Assembly (NCBI GenBank): GCA_024276495.1
Contig: JAJRXC010000067.1
Location: 1 to 46,565, forward strand
DNA length: 46,565 nt
Source: Actinomycetes bacterium
GTDB lineage: Bacteria > Actinomycetota > Acidimicrobiia > Acidimicrobiales > Aldehydirespiratoraceae
Reading direction: 5' to 3'
The position numbers were made by a program, and so were the translations under genes. Below the pieces are notes generated by a model. The model was given only the letters and a program-made list of their open reading frames with translations, was not told where the DNA came from and ran no database searches. Of the stretch, positions 8,378 to 43,391 are shown in pieces. Positions within the stretch are counted from its first letter, which is position 1; each line of letters begins with the position of its first letter.

Positions 8378-9301
8378 GTGAACGACACATCCGGGACCGG
8401 GCCCGTCGACTATCTCGAGCTGACGCGGGCGACCTACGAACGACTCGGCTACGACGCCTACCGCTGGACCCACAACACCGACCCGGTCCCGCTCGCCCCG
8501 TTGCCGAGACCTCTCTCGGAGTGCCGCGTCGCGTTGATCGCGTCGGGTGGGATCTACCGGGTCGGCCAGGTCGCGTTCACCCACAAGGACGACACGTCGG
8601 TTCGCCGCATCCCCACCGATGTCGCGATCGACGAGTTGCGAGCCGGCCACTTCGCCTACGACCTCACCGACGCCCGCCGCGACCCCAACGTGGTGTTCCC
8701 ACTCGAACCCCTGCGCCGCCTCGTCGACGACGGCACCATCGGCTCGCTCACCTCCCACGCCCTCACCTTCATGGGCGGCATCTACTCACAGCGCCGCGTC
8801 GTCGCGGAGTTGATTCCCCGGATCGAGCGGGCGCTCGACTCGATGGGCGCCGACATCGCCCTTCTCGTACCGGTTTGACCGGTCTGCCATCAGTCAGTTG
8901 GGCTGATCGCACGGCAACTCGAGACCAACGGCACCCCCACGGTGGCGATGACCAGCGCCTGGTCGATCACCGCCGCGGTCAACACGCCGCGCGCCGCGTT
9001 CCTCGATTTCCCCCTCGGCCACACCAGCGGCCGACCCGGCCGACCCGACGAGCAGCGCGAGATCATCCGCGACGCGCTGCGACTGTTCGAGTCGGCGGGA
9101 CAGTCGGGAACGATCGTCCCGCTCGACTTCGACTGGGGTTCGCCCTGGAAGGACGACCCGACGAAGCTGGTCGGGAACGCCTCCGCCCGACTCGACACCC
9201 CCCAGTACCAAAGCGATGCGGATCGCCGGGCCGCGATCGAACGACACGGAACGACCGCGGCCTGTGCCGCCTGCGACCCCGAGGACGGCCCGCGGGAATG
9301 A
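8378..9301 (+). CDS. GrdB-family selenoprotein (Sec167)
   Basis: A 307-residue protein if the TGA at 8876-8878 is read as Sec. Upstream (residues 1-166) includes ALIASGGIYRVGQ and ALTFMGGIYSQRRV; downstream the same frame continues as PVCHQSVGLIARQLE and ends at TGA 9299-9301. Together they match the glycine/sarcosine/betaine reductase selenoprotein B family, with the redox motif U-P-V-C at residues 167-170. Both halves keep coding character with no frameshift. A hairpin follows the UGA. The start is GTG at 8378, without an obvious ribosome site. No grdA or grdE/grdC partner is present, so true glycine reductase activity is unlikely; a thiol/selenol redox role is inferred. The C-terminus adds a CAAC motif. 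Confidence 0.85.
8885..8916 (+). promoter_or_regulatory. Candidate bacterial SECIS hairpin, GrdB-family gene
   Basis: Directly after the UGA at 8876-8878, ATCAG (8889-8893) can pair with CTGAT (8903-8907), and TGCC (8885-8888) with GGCA (8913-8916). Alternatively TCAG/CTGA closes the small loop TTGGG at 8898-8902, 19 bases after the UGA. The hexamer CAGTTG at 8895-8900 also forms the tip of the hairpin in the second Sec candidate at nearly the same distance. Structure was judged by eye only. Confidence 0.55.
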
Positions 9302-28736: not shown

Positions 28737-29507
28737 GTGAAAGTGGCGTTCGTCGGCAAAGGGGGATCGGGGAAGTCGACGATCGCCGGAACCTTCGCCC
28801 GGGTGCTGGCGCGAAGAGGCGAAGCCGTTCTCGCGCTGGATTCCGACCCTCTTCCCGGCCTCCCCTATGCCCTCGGACTACCCGTCGACGATCGGCCGAT
28901 CCCCGATGATGCGGTCGTCGCGGGACCCGAGGGTGGGCCACGTTGGGTCCTCTCCCCCGGCCTCGACCCGGCCACGATCATCGAACGCTACGCGGTTCTC
29001 GGCCCGGACGACGTTCGGTATCTCCAGTTCGGCAACACGTCGGGCCACATCTCGACGATCCAGCGGGCCCAGTTCGCCTGGAGCGAGACGGTCAAAGGCG
29101 TCGACACCGACCGCTGGAACCTGGTGGGCGATCTTCCGGGCGGCACCCGCCAGGCCATGTTGGGGTGGGGGAGCTACGCCGACTGCGCGATCCTGGTCGC
29201 CGAGCCGACGAGCAAGTCGTTGCACTCGGCCCGGCGTCTCCTGCGTCTCTCGGACGCCGACTGGGGCCCCACGACGGTGCTGATCGTCGCGAACAAGGTG
29301 CGTCACGCGGACGATGCCGAACGGATCTCGTCGCGGCTGGAACGGCCGGTCACCATCGTGGTCCCGATGTCGGCCGAGATCATGGCCGGCGACCGCCTCG
29401 GCGTCGCGCCGCTCGACGTCGACCCCGACGGATCGTTCGTGGAATCGGTGCGTGCGCTCGTCGACCATGTCGCAGGGTTGTACCATCACGTCGAGGAGGC
29501 GCCATGA
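28737..29507 (+). CDS. CooC/MinD-type ATPase without CxC motif
   Basis: A 256-residue SIMIBI-class ATPase with a deviant P-loop VGKGGSGKSTI at residue 6, a switch I region ALDSDPLPG, DLPGG at the Walker B position and the base-binding VANKVR. At the place where CooC proteins carry Cys-x-Cys it has no cysteine (GNTSGHISTIQRAQ). The start is GTG 28737, placing the P-loop at the normal distance. Its stop overlaps the ATG of the next gene, the Sec candidate, so the two probably act together, perhaps as a heterodimer. It may be a nickel-insertion or cofactor-handling ATPase for the hydrogenase; this is inference from context. Confidence 0.8.
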   Translation: MKVAFVGKGGSGKSTIAGTFARVLARRGEAVLALDSDPLPGLPYALGLPVDDRPIPDDAVVAGPEGGPRWVLSPGLDPATIIERYAVLGPDDVRYLQFGNTSGHISTIQRAQFAWSETVKGVDTDRWNLVGDLPGGTRQAMLGWGSYADCAILVAEPTSKSLHSARRLLRLSDADWGPTTVLIVANKVRHADDAERISSRLERPVTIVVPMSAEIMAGDRLGVAPLDVDPDGSFVESVRALVDHVAGLYHHVEEAP

Positions 29508-30244
29508 AGATCGCGGTCGTGGGCAAGGGTGGGGCAGGCAAGACGACGACATCGGCCGTGCTGGCGCGGAGCCTGGCCCGGCAGGGCCGCGAGGTCGTGG
29601 CGCTGGATTGCGACACGAACCCGAACCTCGGCATCTCTCTCGGCGTCGGGGATCTCGAGACCGAACGTCTGGTGAGTCTTCGGGAGCAACTCGACGACGG
29701 CGACGTGGAGCACGCCGCCGACTGGGACGAGATTCTCGACCGGTTCGGGACGGATGGTCCCGACGGCGTCCGGCTCGGCGTCATCACCCGAATCGAGAAC
29801 CCGGATCCCGGTTGACCTTGATGTGGCTTGTCCGCTGAGCAGTTGCTCAGCTCCGGTGAGTTCGGAACCTCGATCGTCGTCGCGGACCTCGAGGCCGGAA
29901 TCGGCACCCTGTCACGGTTGGGCGATTCGCAGGTCGACCTCACGCTCGTCGTCGTCGAACCGACCCCTCGTTCTCTCGACGTGGGGCGCCGCGCCATCGA
30001 TCTCGCGCGGGAGAACAAGCAGGGACGAGTGATCGTCGTCGTGAACAAGGTCGTCGATGTCGAGACCGATCTGGCCCTCGTCCGCGAGAAGCTGGGTGAT
30101 GCGGAGCTCGTCGTCGTCCCCGACGACGACGCGGTGCTCGACGCCGATCGGGCCGGAACGGCGCTGCTCGACCACGCTCCCGATTGTCCCGCGGCCCGGG
30201 CACTCGTGGAGCTCGTCGATCTCGTCTTCGACTCGGCCGCCTGA
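29504..30244 (+). CDS. CooC-type nickel ATPase, predicted double selenoprotein (Sec104, Sec106)
   Basis: One continuous frame of 246 codons if the UGAs at 29813-29815 and 29819-29821 are sense codons. It has the P-loop VGKGGAGKTTT, DCDTNPNLG, then GUPUCGLSAEQLL (U = UGA), ADLEAG, VVVEPTPRSLDVG and VVNKVVD. The CooC-type protein at 35641-36426 has GCLCSAHATASALL at the same place (Cys107, Cys109), so both UGAs fall on the conserved metal-binding Cys-x-Cys. In CooC that motif binds a metal across the dimer interface and is needed for nickel delivery to CO dehydrogenase. A perfect hairpin lies just downstream. The ATG overlaps the upstream ATPase stop. Two independent nonsense mutations at exactly these codons would be the alternative. 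Confidence 0.82.
29834..29851 (+). promoter_or_regulatory. Candidate bacterial SECIS hairpin, CooC-type gene
   Basis: GCTGAGC (29834-29840) and GCTCAGC (29845-29851) pair perfectly around the loop AGTT. The loop begins 19 bases after the second UGA and 25 after the first, within the 16-37 nt range known for bacterial SECIS elements, and has the expected G in its first two positions. The stem is coding (SAEQLLS). Confidence 0.75.
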
Positions 30245-30325: not shown

Positions 30326-31324
30326 TCACGATCCCCACCTCGATTCGCCATAGTGGCCGAGCTCGCGGGCAAGACGGTCGATTGGCCGTTCGATGTCGTG
30401 GGCGACGAAACGAGCCTCGATCCGGGCGACCGTCTCGGCGCTCGGCCGGAATCGGTGGTCGAAGAACGACTCTTCGTAGATCCGCTCGCGCCGGACGCCG
30501 AGGTTCAGCAACGCCTGACTCATCTCGGCGACCATCGCCCCGTTTCCGACGAGGAAGAAGCATGTGTCGGCGAGGCGCTCGAGGAGGGAGGGGACGGATT
30601 CGGTGACCCGACCGCGAAGGCCCCGCCACTCATCGGAGGGCCGTGACAGGGAGATCGCATACCCGAACTCGGGATTCGTGGCGGCGACGCGCTCGAGCTC
30701 CGGCACGAGGCAGATGTCGGACTCCAGCCGCAGCCCCCAAAAGAGGCGGACGGCACGGTTCGTCCCGAGCAGATCGAGATGCCGCAGCAGGCAGTAGCAC
30801 GGACTCACACCGACCCCGGTGGCGATCATCACCAGGTCCAGGTGATCCTCCCCGAGCAGCATCGAATGGCCGCTGGGTCCGCGGAATCCGACGAGATCGT
30901 CGACACGGAGCTCGCTGAGGAAGACCGACACGGGGCCCGCGTGCACCCGTCGGACCAACAGCTCGAACCGGCGCTCCGTCTCGGAGCCGTCCATCAGGCA
31001 ATACGGGCTGCGGCGGTACCCGTGCGCCGCGTCGGTCATGTCGATCGCGACGAACTGACCCGGGACGAAATCGAATGGCTCGTCATCGACCACCTCGAAC
31101 GCGAGCCGGACCGTGCCGGTCGTGGTCAACGTCTCGACGGCGGTCACCCTGGCGCGCCGCGGCAGTCGGGACGACAGATCGCGGCCGGCGGCTGGCGGCC
31201 GCCGCCACACGCGCCTTCGGGGCCGGTCGGCCGAGCGGTGGGGTCGGGTCCCCCCGGAAGAAGAGGTCACGAGATTGCATGGTAGGCCCGATCGACCGTG
31301 CGTTCGGACGGGCCGACCCGTCAC
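30326..31324 (-). CDS. Ferredoxin reductase-like FAD/NAD(P) oxidoreductase
   Basis: A 332-residue protein with a ferredoxin-NADP reductase fold: FAD-binding barrel with PGQFVAIDM and a flavin-contact motif RRSPYCLM, then a nucleotide domain with ATGVGVSPCYCLLRHL and a C-terminal LVGNGAMVAEM. It lacks a [2Fe-2S] domain. Such subunits pass electrons between hydrogenases or oxygenases and NAD(P)H. It could serve the hydrogenase or supply the orphan Rieske oxygenase. The GTG at 31324 overlaps the PadR stop (GTGA); the first 55 residues are Arg-rich and poorly conserved-looking, so a later start is possible. Confidence 0.75.
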   Translation of the reverse strand: MTGRPVRTHGRSGLPCNLVTSSSGGTRPHRSADRPRRRVWRRPPAAGRDLSSRLPRRARVTAVETLTTTGTVRLAFEVVDDEPFDFVPGQFVAIDMTDAAHGYRRSPYCLMDGSETERRFELLVRRVHAGPVSVFLSELRVDDLVGFRGPSGHSMLLGEDHLDLVMIATGVGVSPCYCLLRHLDLLGTNRAVRLFWGLRLESDICLVPELERVAATNPEFGYAISLSRPSDEWRGLRGRVTESVPSLLERLADTCFFLVGNGAMVAEMSQALLNLGVRRERIYEESFFDHRFRPSAETVARIEARFVAHDIERPIDRLARELGHYGESRWGS

Positions 31325-31823: not shown

Positions 31824-32900
31824 TCAGCAGATCCGGGGCAGAGGATCGCCCACGAGCAGGTCGACGATTCTTGTGCCGCCGAACGGCGTGCGCAACACGA
31901 CCAGGCCCGTCGGACCCTCGACGATCTCTCCGATCGCGACCGCGTCGCCGCCCAGCGGGTGCGCCCGCAACGCCCGCAGCGCAGCGTCCGTGTCGTCGGG
32001 GGCGACGACGACGACGACCTTGCCCTCGTTCGCGACGTACAACGGATCGAGACCCAGCAGCTCGCACGCCCCCGCGGTCGCCGGCGACACGGGCAACGAC
32101 TCGCCGTCGATCGAGACGGCGAGATCGCCGGCGACCGCCAACTCGTTGAGTGCGCTGGCGACACCGCCACGGGTCGGGTCGCGCAGCCAGCGAACCCCCG
32201 GGGCCGCCGCCAGCAGGTCGGCGACCAAGCCGTTGAGGGAGGCGCAATCCGAACGAATGTCGGCATCGAACGCCAGCCCTCCTCGGGCCAACATGATCGC
32301 CATGCCGTGCTCGGCGATCCGACCGGAAACCAAGATCCGGTCGCCGACCCGTACCCGATCCGCTCCGAGCCGAAGCTCGGAGTCGAGGCTCCCGATGCCG
32401 GTGGTGGTGATGTAGATCCCGTCAGCGGCTCCCCGCTCGACGACCTTCGTGTCGCCGGCGACGATGTGCACACCGGCCTCGTCGGCCGCCGATGCCATGT
32501 CACCGGCGATCTCTCGAAGATCCTCGATCGCGAAGCCCTCCTCGATGACGAACGCCGCGGTGAGCCACCGGGGGGTCGCGCCCATGACCGCGATGTCGTT
32601 GACCGTGCCGTGAACGGCCAGCCGGCCGATGGTGCCGCCGGCGAAGCGCCACGGCGACACCACGAACGAGTCGGTGCTGACGACGATCGACTCGGCGCCC
32701 GGGGACACAATCGCACCGTCGTCGCGTTCGTTGAGCCCGGGATCGTCGAAGACGTCGAGGAACACCGCGTCGAGCAACGCCTCGCTGGCTTTTCCACCGG
32801 CACCGTGGGCCATGGTCACCACGACGTCGTCGAACACGGGGCGACGGCGGCGAAACCGCTCGACCCGCTCGAAAACCGCGTGCTTGGCGTCGTCGCTCAC
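31824..32900 (-). CDS. hypE: Hydrogenase maturation protein HypE
   Basis: A 358-residue AIR-synthase-family protein that dehydrates the S-carbamoylated C-terminal Cys to a thiocyanate, the source of the active-site CN ligands. It has MAHGAGGKAS, STDSFVVSP, HGTVNDIAVMGATP, DPTRGGVASAL and the diagnostic C-terminus PRIC ending in Cys358. It starts at GTG 32900, overlapping hypD (GTGA). HypE normally works with HypF, which is not encoded in the window. It is the last gene of the minus-strand operon. Confidence 0.96.
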   Translation of the reverse strand: MSDDAKHAVFERVERFRRRRPVFDDVVVTMAHGAGGKASEALLDAVFLDVFDDPGLNERDDGAIVSPGAESIVVSTDSFVVSPWRFAGGTIGRLAVHGTVNDIAVMGATPRWLTAAFVIEEGFAIEDLREIAGDMASAADEAGVHIVAGDTKVVERGAADGIYITTTGIGSLDSELRLGADRVRVGDRILVSGRIAEHGMAIMLARGGLAFDADIRSDCASLNGLVADLLAAAPGVRWLRDPTRGGVASALNELAVAGDLAVSIDGESLPVSPATAGACELLGLDPLYVANEGKVVVVVAPDDTDAALRALRAHPLGGDAVAIGEIVEGPTGLVVLRTPFGGTRIVDLLVGDPLPRIC

Positions 32901-34021
32901 ACCGCTCGGACCGGAATCGGGTCGCGGCCGGCCAGGCGCCCGTAGTTGTAGTAGGCCGCGCACGCACCTTCGCTCGAGACCATGCAGGTTCCGATCGGGG
33001 TGGTCGGCGTGCAGGCCGTGCCGAAGACCTTGCACTCCCAGGGCCTGATCGCTCCCTTCAGAACCTCGCCACACTGACACGCCTTGGGATCGGCCACCCG
33101 GACGCCGGGCACCGAGTAGCGCCGCTCGGCATCCCATGGCGCGAACTCGTCGCCCAGCTGGAGCGCGCTCTGAGAGATGAATCCGAGACCACGCCATTCG
33201 AAATGGGCCCGCAACTCGAAGACTTCGGCCATGACATCGAGCGCCCGGGCATTGCCATCGGTGGTGACGACCCGTCGATACTGGTTCTCGATCTCGCAGC
33301 GCCCGTCACGACGCTGAGCCAACAACATGTGAACCGCCTGGAGGATGTCGAGCGGTTCGAATCCGGCGACGACCAGCGGGATCCCGTAGCGCTCGGGGAT
33401 GAACCGGTAGGGCCGGGTCCCGACGACCGTGCTGACGTGGCCGGGCCCGAGGAAGCCGTCGAGGCGCAGGTCGGGGCTGTCGAGTATCGCCTTGATGGGG
33501 GGAACGATGGTGACGTGGTTGCAGAACACGCTGAAGTTCGTGACATTCCGCTCGCGCGCGGCCAGCAGGGTGAGCGCCGTGGAGGGTGCGGTCGTCTCGA
33601 ACCCGACGGCGAAGAAGACGACCTCCCGATCCGGCTGGGCCTCCGCCATCTCGAGCGCGTCCATCGGCGAGTAGACCATTTCGATGTGCGCTCCCCGGGC
33701 CTTGGCTTCGAGCAGTGTGGAGCGGCTCCCGGGGACCCGGAGCATGTCGCCGAACGTCGCGAAGACGATCCCGGGTGTCTCGGCCACCGCGATCGCATCG
33801 TCGACCCGACCCATCGGGATCACGCACACCGGACATCCGGGGCCGTGGACCAGCTCGATCTGAGCGGGAAGGATCTGCTCGAGACCGTGCCGGTAGATGG
33901 TGTGGGTGTGGCCTCCGCAGACCTCCATGAACTTCAGCGGCTGGTCGCCGGCCAGGCTGACGATTCCGTCCAGGACCTCTCGAACGGCGGCCGGGTCGCG
34001 GAACTCGTCGACGAACTTCAC
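32897..34021 (-). CDS. hypD: Hydrogenase maturation protein HypD
   Basis: A 374-residue [4Fe-4S] scaffold for Fe(CN)2CO assembly. It shows the invariant FMEVCGGHTHTI, HGPGCPVCVIP, GFETTAP and the C-terminal cluster region with Cys in CQCGEVLKG, KVFGTACTP and CMVSSEGAC. The start is GTG 34021, overlapping the SIS gene stop. HypD forms a complex with HypC, encoded three genes upstream. All signature cysteines appear to be in place. Confidence 0.97.
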   Translation of the reverse strand: MKFVDEFRDPAAVREVLDGIVSLAGDQPLKFMEVCGGHTHTIYRHGLEQILPAQIELVHGPGCPVCVIPMGRVDDAIAVAETPGIVFATFGDMLRVPGSRSTLLEAKARGAHIEMVYSPMDALEMAEAQPDREVVFFAVGFETTAPSTALTLLAARERNVTNFSVFCNHVTIVPPIKAILDSPDLRLDGFLGPGHVSTVVGTRPYRFIPERYGIPLVVAGFEPLDILQAVHMLLAQRRDGRCEIENQYRRVVTTDGNARALDVMAEVFELRAHFEWRGLGFISQSALQLGDEFAPWDAERRYSVPGVRVADPKACQCGEVLKGAIRPWECKVFGTACTPTTPIGTCMVSSEGACAAYYNYGRLAGRDPIPVRAV

Positions 34022-34671
34022 GTCGGCTCCTCAGATCGTCGGGGGCCGTGGGCGACGAGCCGGCACAGCAACGACGAGAGATCGGCCTGGGCCTCCTGGA
34101 TGCGATGCACGGCGTCGGATTCGATGACGATGCAGTGGTCGATGTCAGGGTTCTCCGTCAGCGCGCCCCCGCGGTAGCCGGCGAACGCGATCGTGAGAAG
34201 TCCCCGGGTCCGGGCCACCGCGAACCCACGAAGCACGTTCTCCGACTGGCCACTCGTCGAGAAACCCACCGCGACGTCGTCGGACGAGCCCGACGCCTCC
34301 ACCTGACGAGAGAAGACCTGGGCCACCCCGACGTCGTTGCTCAAGGCGCTCAGGACCACGGGATCGGCGGCCAGCGACCGCGCCCTGACGTCGAGGCCGG
34401 AGATCCCCTCGAGCCGGCGAACGAAAGCCGACGCGTCGCACGCACTGCCGCCGTTGCCGAAGACCAGCACCTTCCCCCCGGCCCGTATCCGGTGGCCCAT
34501 CGATCCCGCCGCGGCCTCGATCACGTCGCGATTTTGCCGTCGGGAACGTTCGATGAGCCGCCTCGATTCGTCGATCTTCCGATCGGCCGAGCTCGCCAGA
34601 TCGACCAGGAGCGTCGACGGATCCCGTTCGTCCGACTCGAGAAACGGGTAGAGGAACGACGCCCCGCTCAT
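34018..34671 (-). CDS. SIS-domain (GmhA-like) protein
   Basis: A 217-residue sugar-isomerase fold protein: GGKVLVFGNGGSACDASAFVRRLEG, VGFSTSGQSENVLRG and IAFAGYRGG match phosphoheptose isomerase-like SIS domains. No heptose pathway genes are near. It sits between hypD and a SIS-HypC fusion with 4-base overlaps at both ends, so it is part of the hydrogenase maturation machinery in this lineage. Its role there is unknown; binding a phosphorylated metabolite is a guess. Confidence 0.85.
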   Translation of the reverse strand: MSGASFLYPFLESDERDPSTLLVDLASSADRKIDESRRLIERSRRQNRDVIEAAAGSMGHRIRAGGKVLVFGNGGSACDASAFVRRLEGISGLDVRARSLAADPVVLSALSNDVGVAQVFSRQVEASGSSDDVAVGFSTSGQSENVLRGFAVARTRGLLTIAFAGYRGGALTENPDIDHCIVIESDAVHRIQEAQADLSSLLCRLVAHGPRRSEEPT

Positions 34672-35375
34672 CGGACTTCGTCCAGCGATCGAAGGGCGAC
34701 ACCCGCGTGGACGAGGAGGAGGTCCCCGACCGAAACCGGTCCGACGAGGCTCGTGTCGACGCTGCCGCGCCCCGATGCCATCCGCACGGCGGCGGCTCCC
34801 GGTTCGATCTCCGCGACCTCGGCGAGCGACAAGTCGTCGGCACAAACCGCACAGGAGACCGGCGGGTCGTCGCCGGATCCCAGAACGTCGGGTTGCTCGA
34901 AGCAGACGTGGGTGAGCTCCCAGAGAAGGTGGTACGACCGCACGATCGAGACCTCGTCACCGTCGGCGAGCCAGAGCGGCGTGGCACTGCTCTCGTCGGG
35001 GGGCCGTGCCCCCCACCCGATCCAGAACATCTCGACTCCCCATGCCGGTGCTCGGCGAGCGATCTCGATCAGGGTCGGATCATCGCCGGGACCGATACCG
35101 ATCACGATGTCGCCGGGGTCGGCGCGGCGCCGCACATCGGCCACCGGATCGGCGTCGACGAGGGCCTCGGCGGGGAGCGCCCGCTTTCCGACGACGACGG
35201 GATGAACGAACTCGACCGCCACGTGACGCGCATGGTCGACCCGGCCCGGGGCCACGCTCCACAGCGACGCACCTCGGGAGAACCGACGGGCGATCCTCAG
35301 CGCCGATCGGGCCAGATCCCCGGCGTCACGACTCGGGGATTCCGCTCCGTCCTCGACGGTCGGCGTCGCGGTCAT
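34668..35375 (-). CDS. SIS-like/HypC-like fusion protein
   Basis: A 235-residue protein. The N-terminal 150 residues look like a degenerate SIS domain (ADPGDIVIGIGPGDDPTLIEIARRA). The C-terminal 65 residues resemble HypC: CAVCADDLSLAEVAEI, AAVRMASGRG, VSVGDLLLVHAGVALRSLDE. It lacks HypC's essential N-terminal Met-Cys, so it cannot replace HypC directly; an internal C-x-x-C may stand in. ATG 35375 overlaps hypC's stop. A genuine HypC is encoded immediately upstream. Confidence 0.78.
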   Translation of the reverse strand: MTATPTVEDGAESPSRDAGDLARSALRIARRFSRGASLWSVAPGRVDHARHVAVEFVHPVVVGKRALPAEALVDADPVADVRRRADPGDIVIGIGPGDDPTLIEIARRAPAWGVEMFWIGWGARPPDESSATPLWLADGDEVSIVRSYHLLWELTHVCFEQPDVLGSGDDPPVSCAVCADDLSLAEVAEIEPGAAAVRMASGRGSVDTSLVGPVSVGDLLLVHAGVALRSLDEVR

Positions 35376-35641
35376 CGTGAATCGACGACCTCGAACCCCT
35401 CGAAGCCACCGTCTTCCTCTCCTTCGAAGAACTTGATGAACTCGAGCGTTCGGGCCGCCTCCTCCTCGTCGACGATGCTCATCGCGAACCCGACGTGCAG
35501 CAGCACCCAGTCGCCGACGACCAATCCGTCGTCGATCACGAGGCTGAGGTCGACTCGTCGACGGACCCCGTCGACGTCGACGAGGCCGGAGCGGGTGTCG
35601 ACGTCGATGTCGATCACCCGGGCGGGCAGACCCACACACAT
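35372..35641 (-). CDS. hypC: Hydrogenase maturation chaperone HypC
   Basis: An 89-residue HypC/HupF protein. ATG 35641 gives Met-Cys-Val-Gly-Leu-Pro, keeping the catalytic Cys2 that binds the Fe(CN)2CO unit and the large subunit; the TTG six bases upstream would bury it and is rejected. VGDWVLLHVGFAMSIVDEEEA is the usual C-terminal barrel segment. An acidic tail (FEGEEDGGFEGFE) follows. The start shares a base with the CooC-type gene's stop (TGATG). Confidence 0.95.
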   Translation of the reverse strand: MCVGLPARVIDIDVDTRSGLVDVDGVRRRVDLSLVIDDGLVVGDWVLLHVGFAMSIVDEEEAARTLEFIKFFEGEEDGGFEGFEVVDSR

Positions 35642-36426
35642 CAGCAATCACCAACCGCGGCCCGGCGCGTGCGAAGAGCGAGAAGATCGTGACGGAGCTC
35701 GGCGATCGCCTCGACCGCACGGCACTCGGGCGCGTGGTCGACGAGCGGTCTGGCCTGTCGATCCGCGTCGAGGATCTCGTCGCTCCAGGGGATGCGTCCG
35801 AGCACCGGCAGCCCGAGCCCGGCGCAGAACTCGTCGATCGCGTCGACGTCGTGTGCGTCTCGCAACTTGTTGGCGACCACCATCACCTTCGTGGCGGGCA
35901 GCTCGGCCGCCAGATCTGCCTGGCGACGAACCGTCTCGAGCGACCGGTAGTAGGGCTCCGCCACCAGCAACAACACGTCGGCATGGCGAGCCGTGCCGCG
36001 ACTCAGGTGCTCCGGCGATGCCTCGAGGTCCATGATCGTCACCGTGTCGGGAGCATCACCGAGGTCGGCGAGCAGGGCACTGGCCGTCGCGTGAGCAGAG
36101 CACAGACACCCCTCTCCGGTGTGCTGGGGCATGCCCATCCGGACCATGAGCACACCGTCGGGGGCCACGGACGCGAACCGGTCGAGGGCTTCGTCGGCGG
36201 TGCACGACAAAGCGGGACCGTCGAGACGCCGCGACACGAGCGATGTCGGCAGGAACGGGGTGCCGGCCACGCTGTCGCGATCGGCACCGATGGCGACACC
36301 GAGGTTCGGGTTCGTGTCGGCGTCGATGGCAACGACCCGGAGGCCGGATCTCGCGACGAGCCGCGCCAACGTCGCGGTGAGCGTGGTCTTGCCGGCGCCG
36401 CCCTTCCCGGCGACCGCGACTCTCAT
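35641..36426 (-). CDS. CooC-type nickel-insertion ATPase (Cys-x-Cys form)
   Basis: A 261-residue SIMIBI ATPase: deviant P-loop VAGKGGAGKTTL, IDADTNPNLG, the metal-binding Cys107-Leu-Cys109 within GEGCLCSAHAT, MDLEAS, LVAEPYYRSLETV and VVANKLRD. This is the CooC architecture for nickel delivery to carbon monoxide dehydrogenase, here inside a hydrogenase maturation operon that has no hypA or hypB. It may therefore perform nickel insertion for the hydrogenase. It provides the internal reference showing that the two UGAs in the paralogue at 29504 replace Cys codons. Confidence 0.88.
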   Translation of the reverse strand: MRVAVAGKGGAGKTTLTATLARLVARSGLRVVAIDADTNPNLGVAIGADRDSVAGTPFLPTSLVSRRLDGPALSCTADEALDRFASVAPDGVLMVRMGMPQHTGEGCLCSAHATASALLADLGDAPDTVTIMDLEASPEHLSRGTARHADVLLLVAEPYYRSLETVRRQADLAAELPATKVMVVANKLRDAHDVDAIDEFCAGLGLPVLGRIPWSDEILDADRQARPLVDHAPECRAVEAIAELRHDLLALRTRRAAVGDC

Positions 36427-36767
36427 CCCTTGAGGTCCATCACGATGCCGACCGCCTCGTCGAGGAGGTCGCGGACTTCGGAGAGGTCCTGCGCGTGACG
36501 GCGGGCCGCGCCGAAGCCGGCGCTCGTCAACTCGTAGACGCGACGACGGGGCCCGGACTCCGACGCCTCCCACCAGGACTCGACGACTCGTTCGTGCTCC
36601 ATCGTCCGCAGCATGCGATAGATCGCCGGAGTGTCGATCATCTGCAGACCGAGCTGATGCAGTCGGTCGGTCAACTCGTAGCCGTAGGAGGCGCCGGTCG
36701 ACAACGCGATGGTCAACAGGGGACGCAGGAACTGGCGGGGAAGGGACGCACCCGATGCATCGGTCAT
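36423..36767 (-). CDS. PadR-family regulator 2
   Basis: A 114-residue PadR winged-helix protein (ALSTGASYGYELTDRLHQLG, DTPAIYRMLRTMEHERVVESWWE). It overlaps its neighbours on both sides by four bases, so it is expressed with the maturation genes. It is the likely regulator of the divergent hydrogenase promoter region, where a 13-bp palindrome sits. Confidence 0.85.
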   Translation of the reverse strand: MTDASGASLPRQFLRPLLTIALSTGASYGYELTDRLHQLGLQMIDTPAIYRMLRTMEHERVVESWWEASESGPRRRVYELTSAGFGAARRHAQDLSEVRDLLDEAVGIVMDLKG

Positions 36768-37171
36768 GAGTGGTCGTGGCCCTGGCGGTGGGCGACGCAG
36801 GCATCGGCTTCGTCGGCGGACATGTGGCACCAGCAGTCGTCGCTGCACTCGCCGTGCGCGGGATGCATCAGCTCGCTGAAGGAGTCGAGGAACTCGTGGG
36901 CCCCCTCGGCGAGGCCGCGCGCCGACAGGGCGTACCACTCCCCGTCGATGGTGAGGTAGCCCTCGACGACGAGCCGGTCGAGATAGCTGATTCCCCGCTC
37001 GGCATCGACGCCGAGGAACCGTTCGATGAGCGGCGCATCGACGAGATCGCCGAATCCCTCACCTCGCAGCCAGTACATCACCTGCAGGATCTCGCTTCGC
37101 CAGTACATGGCCTGCAACGACGAGGACTTCGGTGTCGGGAGCGCCCATTCGTCGCGCGAGTCGATGGTCAT
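36764..37171 (-). CDS. Winged-helix-like protein with Cys/His-rich tail
   Basis: A 135-residue protein. The N-terminal 95 residues look like a winged-helix domain (AMYWRSEILQVMYWLRGEGFGD, SYLDRLVVEGYLTIDGEWYALS). The tail is rich in metal ligands: HPAHGECSDDCWCH and AHRQGHDHS at the C-terminus. I do not recognise the family. Its place directly before padR2 in a nickel-enzyme operon suggests a metal sensor or metallochaperone; this is inference. It overlaps genes on both sides. Confidence 0.7.
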   Translation of the reverse strand: MTIDSRDEWALPTPKSSSLQAMYWRSEILQVMYWLRGEGFGDLVDAPLIERFLGVDAERGISYLDRLVVEGYLTIDGEWYALSARGLAEGAHEFLDSFSELMHPAHGECSDDCWCHMSADEADACVAHRQGHDHS

Positions 37172-38140: not shown

Positions 38141-39364
38141 ATGGCTGAGTACACAAAGGTTCCCGAGGCCCACAGCGACATCCCACTCATGCCGCTCGTC
38201 CTCGACCCCGCCGACCCCTTGGCGCCGGTCGGGCTGCGCAGCCGCCTCAACCCACCGCGTGAGGAGATCTACCAGGGCCCGCTCGAGAAGGTGTACCTCT
38301 TCTGGATCGTCGGCGCCTCGTGCGACGGCTGCACGATCGCCGTCACGGGAGCCACCCACCCCCGCCTCGAGGATCTGCTGCTCGGCAAGGTGCCCGGGCT
38401 TCCGAAGGTCGAGCTCATCCACACGGTCGTCTCCGTCGAGTCCGGTGCCGAATGGACCGAGAACCTGCGGATGGCCGCGGCGGGCGAACTGGATGCCCCC
38501 TACCTGATCTGCTGGGAGGGCTCGATCATGGACGAGACCTACTCGGCCGACGGCTACTGGATGGGGCTCGGCGAAGACCGCGAGACCGGCCGCCAGATCA
38601 CCAGCCTCGAGTGGCTCGACCGGATGGCGCCGGGGGCGGCGGCCGTGCTCGCCATCGGCACCTGCGCGACCTGGGGCGGCATCCCGGCTGCGGCCAACAA
38701 TCCCACCAACGCCATGGGGGTGATGGACCATCTCGGCAAGGACTACCGCTCGACGCTCGGTCTTCCGGTCATCAACATCCCCGGCTGCTCGCCCATCGGC
38801 GACAACATCATCGAGACGGCCGCTGCCGCCCTGCTCTTCTTGAACGGCCTCGCGCCGCTTCCCGAGTTCGACGAGCTCGGACGGCCGGCGTGGCTGTTCA
38901 CCGACACCGTGCATCGTCACTGCCCACGCGCCGGCTACTACGAAGAAGGTGTGTTCGCCGACGAGTACGGCGGCAAGGAGTGTCTCGTGGAGCTGGGCTG
39001 TTGGGGCCCCGTCGTGCAGTGCAACATCGCCGAACGGGGCATCATCGACGGCCACGGTGGCTGCATGAACATGGGAGGGATCTGCATCGGCTGCACCATG
39101 CCCGGATTCCCCGACAAGTTCTCGCCGTTCTACACGGTGGCACCGGGATCGTTCGTGTCGCTGTTCAGCAGTCGGTACACCGGACAGTTCGTCCGCCGGT
39201 TCCGCAATCTGTCGAGACACGACAAGAATCGCTCGGCTCGCTGGGAGAGCAGTGATTCCCCCAGTGGTTGGGCCCGCTACCGCAAGCAACCGACCGGCGT
39301 CGAGAGAGCCGTGCACCGCATCTACAGCAAGGTCCAACACTCGAAGGAAGGCTCGTCCCGCTAG
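38141..39364 (+). CDS. hhyS: [NiFe]-hydrogenase small subunit, group 1h type
   Basis: A 407-residue Fe-S subunit that carries electrons from the active site. Cluster motifs include GASCDGCT (Cys61, Cys64), IGTCATWGG, IPGCSP, then HCPRAGYY, ELGCWGP, CMNMGGICIGCTMPGFPD. No Tat signal peptide is present (it starts MAEYTKVPEA), and the chain has an extra C-terminal basic segment, both as in the actinobacterial-type high-affinity hydrogenases. In that group the proximal cluster uses three Cys and one Asp; the Asp between the first two cysteines would fit. Function: oxidation of trace H2 at the cytoplasmic side. ATG 38141 starts the operon. Confidence 0.95.
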   Translation: MAEYTKVPEAHSDIPLMPLVLDPADPLAPVGLRSRLNPPREEIYQGPLEKVYLFWIVGASCDGCTIAVTGATHPRLEDLLLGKVPGLPKVELIHTVVSVESGAEWTENLRMAAAGELDAPYLICWEGSIMDETYSADGYWMGLGEDRETGRQITSLEWLDRMAPGAAAVLAIGTCATWGGIPAAANNPTNAMGVMDHLGKDYRSTLGLPVINIPGCSPIGDNIIETAAAALLFLNGLAPLPEFDELGRPAWLFTDTVHRHCPRAGYYEEGVFADEYGGKECLVELGCWGPVVQCNIAERGIIDGHGGCMNMGGICIGCTMPGFPDKFSPFYTVAPGSFVSLFSSRYTGQFVRRFRNLSRHDKNRSARWESSDSPSGWARYRKQPTGVERAVHRIYSKVQHSKEGSSR

Positions 39365-39375
39365 GGATCTCGCCC

Positions 39376-41256
39376 ATGTGTTTCAAGAATCTCCCCATCG
39401 ATTTCGATGCCGACGGCAAGGCCACTCTCCGAGCGGACTATGCCGACACCTACTCCGTCGACGTCCAGCCGACGAAACGGTACGTACGGCCGCAGAGCCT
39501 GAGCTCGGCCGTCGCCTCTCCTCCCCGCCTGCGCGAGTGGAGCATCGACCCGGTCACCCGGGTCGCCGGGGCCCTGGCCGTGCACACCACCCTCGATCTC
39601 GAGAAGCGTGAGGCGGTCGACGCCTACTCGCAGGCGATGTTGTTCCGTGGCTACGAGATCATCCTCCAGGGCCGAGATCCTCGCGACGCCATCGACATCA
39701 GCTCGCGGGCCTGTGGTGTCTGCGGCGGCGTGCACTCCACCGTGTCGTCGATGGCGATCGAGCAGGCCTTCGGCATCTGCCCCCCACCCCTCGGTGTCTG
39801 TGTTCGGAATCTCGGCGAGGTCGCCGAGATGTTCTACGACCATCCGATCCATCTCGGACTGCTCGCCGGACCCGACTACTCCACCGCACTCGTCTCGGTG
39901 ACGAACCCCGAGCTGGTCGAGCTCGCCGCTCGCACACCGGCGCGCCACGCCCACCTCCACGGCTACAAGACCGTGAAGGACATCATGGACGCGATGAACC
40001 CGCTCGAGGGGGCGATCTACCTCGAGGCGCTGGAGTACACGCGCTACGGGCGGATCATGTGCACGCTCATGTACGGCAAGTACCCGCATCCGTCGACGCT
40101 GGTTCCGGGCGGTTTGTCGACCACGGTGACGACCTCGACGTTCAACGAGTTCTACTCCTACCTGGGGAAGATCTTCGACTACTCCAAGCGGCTGGCCGGC
40201 TGGTGGGACGACATCTGCGACTTCTTCCTCGAGGCGAATCCGGAGTACGAGCGGGTCGGCGCCCGCCCCGCGAACCTCATCCAGACCGGCATCTGGGACG
40301 ATCCCGAGGCATACGACGCCACCTACGAGAACATGGATCAGTGGGGAAACCGGCGAACGGCGATGCCGGGGATCATTCTCGACGGCGAACTGGTCACCAC
40401 CGACCTCACCCGGATCAACATGGGCATCGAGGAGTTCGTGGAGCACTCCTACTACGAGGATTGGACCACCAACGGATCCGAGATCAAGTTCGAGACCGAT
40501 TCGCTCGGCAACCCGTTGTCGCCGTACCACATGTGGAACAAGACGACGATCCCGAAGCCGGGAGCGAAGAACTTCAAGGAGAAGTACACCTGGGACACCG
40601 CGCCGCGTTGGGACCGCATCAGCATGGAGACCGGCGTCTACGGCCGCATGTGGACCACCGCGATGGCCCAGACCCTCGAGTCGAACCCGTTCATGGATGC
40701 CACCGGCGATGGGCTGAGGCTCTTGATGCCCCGCCACGATCTTCCCGAGCTCGAGCTCGAGTGGAAGATCCCGCGCACCCTAAATGCCCTGGAACGCAAC
40801 CGGGCCCGGGCCTATGGCGTCGGCTTCACCGCCGCGATCGGCATGATCCATCTGATGAAGGCGTTCGAGTACTGGCGCAAGGGGGAGACGGCCCTCAACG
40901 TCCCGTTCAAGGTGCCACAGGACGAACGGGTGGCGATGGGGGTCTGGGAGGCCGGCCGTGGCTACCTCACCCATCACCTCCACATCGACAAGGGCAAGAT
41001 CGTCAACTACCAGATCAACACGCCGTCCACATGGAACGCGGCGCCTCGCGATCCGTTCGGGAACCCGGGTCCCTACGAGGAGGCGATCGTCGGAACCCCG
41101 ATCCTCGAGAGTGTGAGCGACGACAAGATCAAGGGCATCGACATCCTCCGGGCGATCCGCAGCTTCGATCCCTGCATGCCGTGCACGACCCACATGGACA
41201 CCGGCCGCGGAGTGATCACCCGTGAGGTCAACTCCTGCAGCTGCACCCTCGAGTAG
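39376..41256 (+). CDS. hhyL: [NiFe]-hydrogenase large subunit, group 1h type
   Basis: A 626-residue catalytic subunit with the NiFe(CN)2CO site. The L1 motif is SRACGVCGGVHS (Cys113, Cys116), and L2 is DPCMPCTTH (Cys600, Cys603, His606). A 20-residue C-terminal peptide follows His606 and would be removed by a maturation protease after nickel insertion; it ends in SCSC plus three residues. Start ATG 39376 lies 11 bases after hhyS; the longer upstream frame overlaps hhyS and is rejected. The length is typical of group 1h and longer than most group 1 enzymes. Confidence 0.96.
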   Translation: MCFKNLPIDFDADGKATLRADYADTYSVDVQPTKRYVRPQSLSSAVASPPRLREWSIDPVTRVAGALAVHTTLDLEKREAVDAYSQAMLFRGYEIILQGRDPRDAIDISSRACGVCGGVHSTVSSMAIEQAFGICPPPLGVCVRNLGEVAEMFYDHPIHLGLLAGPDYSTALVSVTNPELVELAARTPARHAHLHGYKTVKDIMDAMNPLEGAIYLEALEYTRYGRIMCTLMYGKYPHPSTLVPGGLSTTVTTSTFNEFYSYLGKIFDYSKRLAGWWDDICDFFLEANPEYERVGARPANLIQTGIWDDPEAYDATYENMDQWGNRRTAMPGIILDGELVTTDLTRINMGIEEFVEHSYYEDWTTNGSEIKFETDSLGNPLSPYHMWNKTTIPKPGAKNFKEKYTWDTAPRWDRISMETGVYGRMWTTAMAQTLESNPFMDATGDGLRLLMPRHDLPELELEWKIPRTLNALERNRARAYGVGFTAAIGMIHLMKAFEYWRKGETALNVPFKVPQDERVAMGVWEAGRGYLTHHLHIDKGKIVNYQINTPSTWNAAPRDPFGNPGPYEEAIVGTPILESVSDDKIKGIDILRAIRSFDPCMPCTTHMDTGRGVITREVNSCSCTLE

Positions 41257-41257
41257 G

Positions 41258-41752
41258 GTGCCCGCCCCCACAACCGTCGACGACTGCACACTCGTCGGTG
41301 GTATCGGCCTTCCCTGGCTCCGCGACCTCGACTTCGGTACGCAGTGGATCAATCGCGTGAGCGACCTCGACTGGCCCGACCACGTGCTGATCGAAGACCT
41401 CTCGTACGCCGCGCACCGGGTGCTGCATCGACTTCAGGAGGTCCGCCCCGCCCATGTCGTGCTCGTCGGTGCGATGCCGCGTGACGTCGACCCACCCGGG
41501 ACCATTCGCAGCTACACGCTCGACCTGACACCGCCGCCCCCCGAGGAGGTCCACGAACGGCTCGCCGAGGCGGCCGGCGGCATCATCGATCTCGATCACA
41601 CCCTTGCCGTGTGTCGTCACTGGAACGCGTTCCCGAGCGATACTGTCGTGATCGAAGTCGAGCCGGCCGATCGCTCGTTCGGCCTGGGTTTCTCCGACGA
41701 GATCGAGGCGACGGTCGACCGGGTTCTTGAGCTGGTACGGGAATCGATATGA
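41258..41752 (+). CDS. Divergent hydrogenase maturation protease-like protein
   Basis: A 164-residue protein with the HyaD/HybD-type layout: VGGIGLPWLRDLDFG (metal-binding acidic residue), LIEDLSYAAHRVL, VVLVGAMPRDVDPPGTI, and a conserved-looking His in IIDLDHTL. It differs clearly from the canonical protease at 42870. The GTG at 41258 directly follows the hhyL stop. It might process the unusual hhyL C-terminus or act as a non-proteolytic partner. Confidence 0.72.
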   Translation: MPAPTTVDDCTLVGGIGLPWLRDLDFGTQWINRVSDLDWPDHVLIEDLSYAAHRVLHRLQEVRPAHVVLVGAMPRDVDPPGTIRSYTLDLTPPPPEEVHERLAEAAGGIIDLDHTLAVCRHWNAFPSDTVVIEVEPADRSFGLGFSDEIEATVDRVLELVRESI

Positions 41753-42324
41753 ACGACGAGCGGCTTGCGTTCGCGGACATCCAGGCACACATCGCCGACC
41801 TGGCCGAACCACTGGTCGGCCATCCCGATCCCGCCATCGCCGAGGCGGTGACGGAACTGCTCGACTGGATCGACGTCTTCAACGGCACCGGGATCGGGCG
41901 GCTCATCGATCTGGTGAGGGAATGGCGAGGTGAGATCTTCCTCGGGGCCGCGGCGACCGACCCGATCGTGGGCCCCCTGCTCGCGGCCTACGGGCTCGGT
42001 GAGGGGATCGACGTCGACGAGGCGCGCGTGGCCGTGCAGGCCGCCCTCGCCGAGGTTCGCCCGTATCTCCACTCCCACGGTGGCGACATGGAGTTGATCG
42101 ACATCACCGATGGTGTGGTGCGGCTCAAGCTGCACGGCTCGTGCGATGGATGCACCGCGTCGGATCAGACGATCACCGAACAAGTCGAGACGTCACTTCG
42201 TGAGAACTGGGTCCACTTTCGTCGTGTCGAAATCGAGGAGATGACAGCGGATCCGCACCCGCCACCGGTTCCGGGGTCGATCACGACCGGCCTGCAGATC
42301 CGCCCGAGCACCGACGGCGAGTGA
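41749..42324 (+). CDS. NifU C-terminal domain protein
   Basis: A 191-residue protein. Residues 95-150 form a NifU-type Fe-S scaffold domain (VRPYLHSHGGDMELIDIT, KLHGSCDGCTAS with Cys132 and Cys135). The N-terminal 90 residues are a helical extension of unknown fold and the C-terminus has a Pro-rich tail. It likely delivers Fe-S clusters to HhyS. ATGA overlap with the preceding gene. Confidence 0.88.
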   Translation: MNDERLAFADIQAHIADLAEPLVGHPDPAIAEAVTELLDWIDVFNGTGIGRLIDLVREWRGEIFLGAAATDPIVGPLLAAYGLGEGIDVDEARVAVQAALAEVRPYLHSHGGDMELIDITDGVVRLKLHGSCDGCTASDQTITEQVETSLRENWVHFRRVEIEEMTADPHPPPVPGSITTGLQIRPSTDGE

Positions 42325-42873
42325 ATGGAACCGGACCGGCCAGGCAACCAGGGTGTCGAGACACCCGTGAGCCAACTCCACGACGACATCCCGTTTCGGG
42401 CTCGGGCCCTGGCCCAGGCTCATCCGCTCACCGAATCGGCCTCGTCGTACCGGGAGAGCCGCATCTCGATCGAGCGCGAGACCCAGCCCCTGCCCGAGTT
42501 CGCCGACTGGGCCGCGACCGCGTTCCTCGTCGGGTACTGCGTGCGCCGGGTCGAGGAAGCCGACGCCGCTGAACAGCTGACGGTCGCGTTCGGCCGCGCG
42601 GTCGAGGACCTCGACCTGCTCGGGGCGGCGGCGACCCGAATCGCCGATGATCTCCGTTCCGGTCGCCCGGCGGGGACCGATCTGCTCGATCCCGAGCTCG
42701 TCGAATCCGCGCTCGATGCCGTCATCGGCTCGGAGGTCGACAAACGTCGGGAGCATTGGCGAGAGCACGTCAGCAACGAGGACTGGGCGATGTTCGAGCA
42801 GTACGTCACCTGGTGGGTGGTGCACGGCTACGCCGTGCGGGCGGCCGAACGACCAGCCGTCATCACTTCATGA
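42325..42873 (+). CDS. Conserved-looking hypothetical protein in hydrogenase operon
   Basis: A 182-residue soluble protein of mixed helices (PEFADWAATAFLVGYCVRRV, EDLDLLGAAATRIADDL) without recognised domains. It begins directly after the NifU gene stop and overlaps the protease gene by four bases, so it is an integral operon member. An in-frame GTG at 42367 (VSQLHDD) is a possible alternative start. Function unknown; hydrogenase assembly is inferred from location only. Confidence 0.7.
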   Translation: MEPDRPGNQGVETPVSQLHDDIPFRARALAQAHPLTESASSYRESRISIERETQPLPEFADWAATAFLVGYCVRRVEEADAAEQLTVAFGRAVEDLDLLGAAATRIADDLRSGRPAGTDLLDPELVESALDAVIGSEVDKRREHWREHVSNEDWAMFEQYVTWWVVHGYAVRAAERPAVITS

Positions 42874-43391
42874 GGGTGATCGTAGCCGGTGTCGGCAACG
42901 TCTTGCGCTCCGACGACGGATTCGGCGTCGAGGTCGCCAATCGTCTCTTGCGCCGCGGCCAGCCCGACGGCGTCACGGTCGTGGAGACGGGAATCGCCGG
43001 CATCCAGCTGGTCCAGGATCTCATGGATGGTTACGACGCCGTGATCGTGATCGACACGGTCGACCGTGGTCGACCGCCCGGGACCGTCATGGTGATCGAG
43101 CCCGATGTCGTCGACGTGCAGGAGCTCGACCACAACGAGCGCTACGACCTTCTCGCCGACATGCACATGGCGACGCCCGAACGCTCGTTGATGCTCGCCC
43201 GCGCCCTGGAGATCCTTCCTGACGACGTGTTGATGGTCGGCTGCCAACCCTTCGACGTGGAGTCGCCGGCGATCGGTCTGTCGCCGGCGATCGAGGCCGC
43301 GATCGAGCCGGCCATCGCCGAAGTCGACCGGTGCATCCGTGAGCTTCTCGACCGCGGACCACGCCGTCGACGCGGGGAAGACCATGAGTGA
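42870..43391 (+). CDS. Hydrogenase maturation protease
   Basis: A 173-residue HycI/HyaD/HoxM-family endopeptidase. GVGNVLRSDDGFGVEV holds the first nickel-recognition acid (Asp15/16), VIVIDTVDRGRPPGTV the second Asp, and LADMHMATPERSL the His. It should remove the hhyL C-terminal peptide after His606 once nickel is in place. ATG 42870 overlaps the preceding stop (ATGA). Confidence 0.93.
   Translation: MRVIVAGVGNVLRSDDGFGVEVANRLLRRGQPDGVTVVETGIAGIQLVQDLMDGYDAVIVIDTVDRGRPPGTVMVIEPDVVDVQELDHNERYDLLADMHMATPERSLMLARALEILPDDVLMVGCQPFDVESPAIGLSPAIEAAIEPAIAEVDRCIRELLDRGPRRRRGEDHE

Follow-up and report, generated by a model that had tools for sequence, protein, structure and literature searches.

A CooC-like ATPase with a predicted Sec-x-Sec-Cys motif, encoded beside a [NiFe]-hydrogenase in Acidimicrobiia

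In the nickel-insertion ATPase CooC1, each protomer contributes Cys112 and Cys114 to an interfacial Zn site for which Ni is a competitor (PMC6006190). Selenoproteins were catalogued in 2026, with 119 families and subfamilies counted (PMC13188914); neither a UxU motif nor any CooC, MinD or ParA family appears in Table 1 of that paper, and the words CooC and MinD are absent from its main text. Literature searches by title and start of abstract returned no report of a CooC family with two selenocysteines (Sec), although a report elsewhere is not excluded. In Geodermatophilaceae a tRNA-Sec with the anticodon CUA accompanies UAG-Sec codons in FDH, UGSC-motif and AhpC genes, as described in PMC5330540. 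Here we describe a predicted Sec-containing relative of CooC1 in an actinobacterial [NiFe]-hydrogenase cluster on contig JAJRXC010000067.1 (assembly GCA_024276495.1), using the window, the whole stretch of 46,565 nucleotides, for all coordinates unless another contig or locus is named; genomes, contigs and loci are given by our own G, C and L numbers.

The gene lies at 29504-30244 (+), from M1 to the stop. Its frame is open save for TGA at codons 104 (29813-29815) and 106 (29819-29821) before the terminal TGA, in agreement with the initial annotation that it was otherwise uninterrupted, and its ATG overlaps the stop of the gene upstream within the sequence ATGA (29504-29507). Translated with Sec, the product has 246 residues and the motif PDPG-U-P-U-C-GLSAEQLL, i.e. 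Sec104-Pro-Sec106-Cys107, with the conserved third Cys encoded at 29822-29824. The deviant Walker A form GKGGxGKT(T/S) is present as GKGGAGKTT, and the P-loop residues G7, K8, G9, G10, G12 and K13 are invariant in our alignment. The two in-frame UGAs had been proposed to coincide with the CxC of a CooC-type paralogue in the same window (35641-36426, -), and the alignment does put both on its ordinary CLC motif. On sequence evidence we regard Sec at both positions 104 and 106 as very nearly certain; that selenium is incorporated is an inference.

Pfam identifies a CbiA/MinD/ParA-type nucleotide-binding domain in the UxUC protein, and the top phmmer match in the PDB is CooC1 (3kje; 55.5 bits), in whose alignment Cys112 and Cys114 face residues 104 and 106, such that the CooC-type CxC ligand position is conserved and filled by Sec-x-Sec codons. 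No family in NCBIfam release 20 is over its cut-off for this protein, and the HypB model TIGR00073 is absent from the 21 NCBIfam families that match it at E <= 0.001. An AF2 model has a pLDDT of 90.6, the motif loop (residues 101-110) being less certain at 67, and aligns with 3kje over 230 residues (Z 21.4, rmsd 3.1). MinD (1hyq, Z 23.7) ranks first in this comparison and CooC1 only twentieth, so the fold alone cannot single out CooC; MinD, FlhG, FleN and nitrogenase Fe proteins have fold scores as high as that of CooC1. We conclude that the UxUC protein is a SIMIBI-class ATPase of the CooC/MinD type, with its function inferred in the absence of biochemical data on ATPase activity, dimerisation or Ni/Zn binding.

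Matches to the UxUC protein (E <= 1e-10) occur in 27 of 395 genomes of the class, and for ten of these the top match shows TGA at both of the same columns. There are two TGA codons in the host (G000) and in G223, G324, G388, G138, G330, G314, G225 and G257, and three in G336. All ten carry UPUC or ULUC; the best match in G247 carries CPCC and no TGA. Scanning named genomes turned up 41 loci, 36 of which were examined (L104, L105, L107, L108 and L109 were excluded as short or partial): 17 have UPUC, L087-L089 have CPUC and L070, L090 and L091 have CPCC, and the others either lack the motif or are remoter relatives with CxC, UxC or CLCC. A phylum sample yielded 11 further genomes at E <= 1e-40 among 396 searched, and the ten loci examined have UPUC (4), CPUC or CLUC (5) or CQCC (1); the eleventh, L144, was missed by the motif pattern. 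Some rows come from identical or nearly identical genomes, L069 being the L010 contig and L077 and L083 the contigs of G324 and G388; the motif region of L142 is the same as that of L087, and L071, L073, L074, L078 and L079 are mutually close.

In a set of 32 genes with UxUC, CxUC or CxCC forms (28 Sec-type, 3 Cys-type and that of G247), the residue 104 codon is TGA in 24 and a Cys codon in the other 8, and the residue 106 codon is TGA in 27, TAG in one and Cys in 4, with nothing but TGA, TAG or Cys codons at either column. The initial annotation had proposed asking whether homologues have CxC or CPCC at these columns, and only Cys or Sec codons were found there in the relatives compared. A tree built from 51 selected rows unites the UxUC, CPUC and CPCC rows and a single U-only row with support (99/94), next to a CLCC group, although some inner subfamily forks are weak (85/68, 89/62). 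The UxUC state requires three changes on this tree and CPCC four, which points to repeated exchange between Sec and Cys. CooC paralogues with a single Sec are also seen, of both UxC (GULC, GUTC) and U-only (GUTG, PGUGGL) kinds (L047-L053 and L097), in G225, G058, G330, G138, G257 and a Thermoleophilaceae MAG, several of them with downstream hairpins of their own.

Directly upstream of the UxUC gene is a CooC-like paralogue without CxC but with an intact P-loop (28737-29507, +), whose TGA stop overlaps the UxUC ATG. All 26 loci compared that have a UxUC, CxUC or CxCC gene carry a paralogue of this CxC-less type immediately before it in the same orientation (L069, L072, L074, L075, L077-L080 and L083 were left out of this comparison), the absence of CxC having been established by reading 11 loci; it may be a heterodimer partner. 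Downstream and on the opposite strand are genes for an FNR-type FAD/NAD(P) reductase (30326-31324), which also directly follows the CPCC gene in G247 and is present in the G058 hydrogenase cluster; HypE (31824-33197; TIGR02124, 423.9 bits, the match beginning at residue 127 of the listed ORF); HypD (32897-34021; TIGR00075, 499.4 bits); a SIS-domain (GmhA-like) protein (34018-34845); a HypC-like chaperone (34668-34970; over cut-off for PF01455 at 38.2 bits and below it for TIGR00074); and, beyond the CLC paralogue on its upstream side, a PadR-like regulator (36423-36938).

The forward strand then encodes the [NiFe]-hydrogenase small (38141-39364) and large (39268-41256) subunits, a hydrogenase maturation protease-like protein without a Pfam match (41222-41752; TIGR00072, 50.7 bits against a cut-off of 47.45), a NifU-domain protein (41749-42324) and a maturation protease of the HupD/HycI kind (42756-43391; TIGR00072, 114.7 bits). 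The best PDB match of the large subunit is 5aa5 (518.7 bits), which we take to be the Ralstonia 'actinobacterial-type', group 1h enzyme. We considered Sec in the large subunit itself and rejected it, as there is Cys throughout CGVC and DPCMPC. No match to the catalytic subunit of Ni-CODH (cooS) was found among the window proteins scanned, which do not include all window genes. This context supports the role in nickel handling and hydrogenase maturation suggested in the initial annotation, but the role itself has not been demonstrated.

A long match to a hydrogenase large subunit is present in all 11 of the UxUC or CPCC genomes of the class sample, and the window large subunit finds a relative of 767-1400 bits in G324, G388, G314, G336, G223 and G247 and also in G225, G138, G330, G257 and G058. 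These counts use the longer PF00374 matches; 79 genomes matched this model, about 45 of them only over its first ~90 positions, and such short matches are probably complex I NuoD. HypB and HypA are over cut-off in only one of the same 11 genomes, in both cases G225, and the coexistence there of UxUC with HypA/HypB counts against replacement. For comparison we used other genomes of the class with long, similar-scoring hydrogenases, whose type was judged by match score and not by direct comparison with that of the window (HypB was sought in 27 + 17 genomes, and HypA in 20, excluding the eight with a 740-770-bit hydrogenase). HypB is present in G334, G203, G131, G146, G096 and G197 but not over cut-off in G196, G233, G288 and G058, and it is missing from all eight genomes with a different hydrogenase of 740-770 bits (G156, G007, G038, G241, G133, G210, G090 and G018), in which no UxUC gene was found either; UxUC genomes are thus not alone in lacking HypB. 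HypA is present in G334, G203, G131, G146, G096, G196 and G233 and not over cut-off in G288 and G058 (G197 is outside the HypA set). Replacement of HypA/HypB by the CooC set is suggested by these distributions but not proven, the evidence from HypA being more telling than that from HypB.

Taken as a whole, the explanation that we favor, and think likely though well short of settled, is that a double-Sec CooC-like ATPase loads nickel into the adjacent hydrogenase in place of HypA/HypB. In this scheme SelB with Sec-tRNA would decode both UGAs through one shared bSECIS hairpin, and selenolates of the Sec-x-Sec(-Cys) loop would bind a metal at a dimer interface, as the Cys pair does in CooC1. The site would open and close with ATP binding and hydrolysis, and the UxUC protein, the CxC-less upstream paralogue and the CxC paralogue would together put nickel into the adjacent [NiFe]-hydrogenase, performing the job of the missing HypA/HypB. 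Selenium could be of benefit by making metal exchange tighter or faster, or by allowing the site to recover from oxidation. Insofar as sequence evolution can establish them, the recoding, the SECIS element, the CooC homology and the interchange of Cys and Sec are the established parts, whereas the metal, the dimer type, nickel insertion and the selenium benefit are inferred, and a 'diselenolate' metal site is an inference by analogy with CooC1. The best reading is that the protein acts as a selenolate chaperone for nickel (or zinc) and has taken over the HypA/HypB step, with metal binding and role inferred. The most far-reaching form of the proposal, in which a Sec-x-Sec nickel site, of four selenolates in a homodimer or of two in a pairing with the CxC-less paralogue, drives [NiFe]-cofactor assembly instead of HypA/HypB in H2-oxidising actinobacteria and the selenium is in the maturase, a selenium-based metallochaperone, and not in the hydrogenase, we consider evenly poised between right and wrong.

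It is possible, if unlikely, that the double-Sec protein is real but that its site functions in storage, export or redox sensing, or in the maturation of some other nickel enzyme; in the redox version, U104, U106 and C107 would act as a diselenide or selenenylsulfide switch. Several loci adjoin an importer and have no hydrogenase subunit gene in the stretch examined, as would suit such a role. Genes for an SBP_bac_5 protein, permease and ATPase are upstream in several loci, which also counts as context in favor of the nickel-loading reading, and a solute-binding-protein family is found in 13 of 27 clustered loci (two of the 13 are the same contig). At L071 a solute-binding protein, two permeases and an ATPase precede the CooC pair and match NikA/B/C/E and Opp/Dpp models, although the importer matches to NikA/B/C/E are below the curated cut-offs in the only two loci scanned. 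The stretches examined around L071, L073, L082 and L084-L086 yielded no gene for a hydrogenase subunit, nor did the pieces examined of G225 C34, G138 C97 and G330 C86. A HypF-type family is seen in 6 of the 27 clustered loci (the one representative scanned is over cut-off for TIGR00143). The third Cys adjoining the motif, the U-only paralogues (GUTG, PGUGGL) without a second ligand and the unspecific absence of HypB also fit a role outside hydrogenase maturation. The CO-induced hydrogenase of Rhodospirillum rubrum is reported to mature without involvement of its CooC (PMC6006190), which counts against the favored role. Against the alternative are the long large-subunit matches in all 11 UxUC or CPCC class genomes, the lack of HypA and of HypB in ten of them, and the homology to CooC1, which indicates metal insertion.

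The putative bSECIS hairpin is at 29834-29851 (+) and has a 7-bp stem and the loop AGUU (29841-29844). The initial annotation had recognized this stem and loop but placed the hairpin 19 nt after the second UGA, a spacing that applies to the loop; the stem starts 12 nt past the second UGA and 18 nt past the first, and the loop 19 and 25 nt past them respectively. The published rules for bSECIS elements call for a stem of 4-16 bp, a loop of 3-9 nt with G within its first two bases, 16-37 nt from UGA to loop and an MFE of at most -7.5 kcal/mol (PMC13188914), and the hairpin satisfies these with its 7-bp stem, AGUU loop and 19/25 nt spacing; its hairpin-only centroid energy is -12.8 kcal/mol. The fold of this region of the window alone is unexceptional relative to shuffles (z -0.65 to -1.02); support for the hairpin rests on conservation and not on the energy of a single sequence. 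The sequence GAGCAGTTGCTC is identical across the 28 Sec-type genes aligned, and a 12-nt core is present in 28/28 and 9/9, i.e. 37/37, Sec-type genes, a few near-duplicates included. Codons 112-115 have no synonymous differences among 27 Sec-type genes, compared with a mean of 0.45 over 113 codons, and are the sole zero among 100 four-codon stretches. In an alignment of 27 distinct rows, 97.9% of cells are paired, five of the seven stem pairs are invariant, the outer pair is broken in four rows, and pair 24-37 is CG in 16, UA in 8 and UG in 3; the covariation is 0.195 as compared with 0.087 in shuffles, none of 500 shuffles being as high. The core is altered in four of five Cys-only genes (L070, in the loop only, L090, L091 and L147) and still intact in the fifth, that of G247.

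A single hairpin serving two UGAs raises a further alternative, that only the UGA at 106 is decoded well and that at 104, 18 nt from the stem, poorly, leaving a short form that is dominant or regulatory. The single-Sec CPUC and CLUC forms retain U106 at the 12-nt spacing, and another hairpin, read by eye, starts ~15 nt past the UGA in single-Sec paralogues from G058, G257, G330 and G138, both of which would suit this idea. However, the distance of 25 nt from the first UGA to the loop is within the 16-37 nt range given in PMC13188914, and the first UGA is retained in 24 of 28 Sec-type genes in the main alignment and in four of nine in the phylum-sample set. We therefore consider poor decoding of the first UGA improbable and retain the reading in which both are decoded through the one hairpin.

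The host was expected to have the Sec machinery, and a search of its genome for selA, selB, selC and selD found all four over cut-off: tRNA-Sec (64.6 bits), SelB (275.3 bits) and SelA (394.9 bits), the last two adjacent on contig C79, and SelD (368.6 bits; G000:C48:14587-15504), which has one in-frame TGA and so is likely a selenoprotein itself. All 12 genomes tested for SelA have it over cut-off, as do 10 of 11 for SelD, and tRNA-Sec is found in 247 of 395 genomes of the class. The SelD exception is G324 (UPUC), in which SelA is present but tRNA-Sec, like SelD, is not over cut-off; nor is tRNA-Sec over cut-off in G396 (CPUC, 1.6 Mb). Both cases count against the proposal, though assembly gaps are possible. 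Among four CPCC genomes examined, tRNA-Sec is not over cut-off in G247, G399 (L090) and G400 (L091) and is present in G401 (L070); this tRNA-Sec in a Cys-only genome and the hairpin core kept in Cys-only G247 are further contrary observations.

In the cultured Modestobacter sp. DSM 44400 (L092) the motif is CP-TAG-C, the residue 106 codon being TAG (L092 6316-6318), and the anticodon of its tRNA-Sec is CTA (CUA), as compared with TCA in five other tRNA-Sec inspected; this CTA-anticodon tRNA (L128) is labelled tRNA-Pyl by ARAGORN. Together with the precedent in PMC5330540, these observations make it appear that the codon changed in step with the tRNA in the CooC-like gene too. That the UGAs are stops or pseudogene lesions, or reflect a genome-wide code change, is scarcely credible and we reject it: standard gene calling does end at residue 103 and there are two stops in one frame, but the same two columns recur in many genomes at 48-73% identity with the downstream sequence intact, Cys counterparts exist, TAG occurs with a CTA tRNA-Sec, the SECIS element is constrained, and most long GC3-rich window ORFs end in TGA, so that TGA is not generally read through.

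A second probable selenoprotein is encoded in the window at 8378-9301 (+), with a TGA at 8876-8878 and the motif VPV-U-PVCHQS. Read through, it resembles PrdB/GrdB-type selenoprotein B, over cut-off for PF07355 (32.4 bits) and below it for TIGR04483 (142.2 bits; cut-off 300). Its hairpin has 7 bp, a loop 17 nt past the TGA and an energy of -6.9 kcal/mol, just short of the -7.5 kcal/mol rule of PMC13188914.

Standard gene calling halts at the first UGA, after residue 103, and thus hides the family of the UxUC protein. If the predictions are true, the list of selenoproteins gains a P-loop ATPase of the metallochaperone type with two Sec residues at its metal site, and the nickel-insertion step of [NiFe]-hydrogenase maturation would seem to have been remodelled without HypA/HypB in an actinobacterial lineage. 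The natural UxUC, CxUC, CxCC and U-only relatives constitute a ready series for examining the role of selenium in metal transfer, and the paired UGAs on one SECIS element, together with the UAG version in a cultured Modestobacter, would be useful for studies of Sec decoding.

Of the described systems, the UxUC protein resembles CooC1 of Carboxydothermus hydrogenoformans (3kje), the nickel-insertion ATPase of CODH, in its P-loop GKGGxGKT, its fold and the position of the ligand pair, and differs in having predicted Sec for both ligands followed by a third Cys, and in that its gene sits in a [NiFe]-hydrogenase cluster. CobW is a P-loop GTPase. The CobW-related selenoprotein NF041053, listed in Table 1 of PMC13188914, has one Sec, in UxxC instead of UxUC. 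It is likewise a P-loop NTPase of the metallochaperone kind with Sec, but it belongs to another NTPase class. The Modestobacter gene shares with the UAG-Sec genes of Geodermatophilaceae the CUA anticodon of tRNA-Sec and UAG as the Sec codon, although no CooC-like gene is among those named in PMC5330540. The HypA/HypB pair is different again, in that the UxUC protein is not of the HypB family by sequence and ten of the 11 genomes carrying the gene lack HypA, and ten lack HypB; what the two systems would have in common, including the ATP-hydrolysing archaeal HypB mentioned in PMC12134894, is the proposed step, an NTP-driven delivery of nickel to the hydrogenase large subunit.
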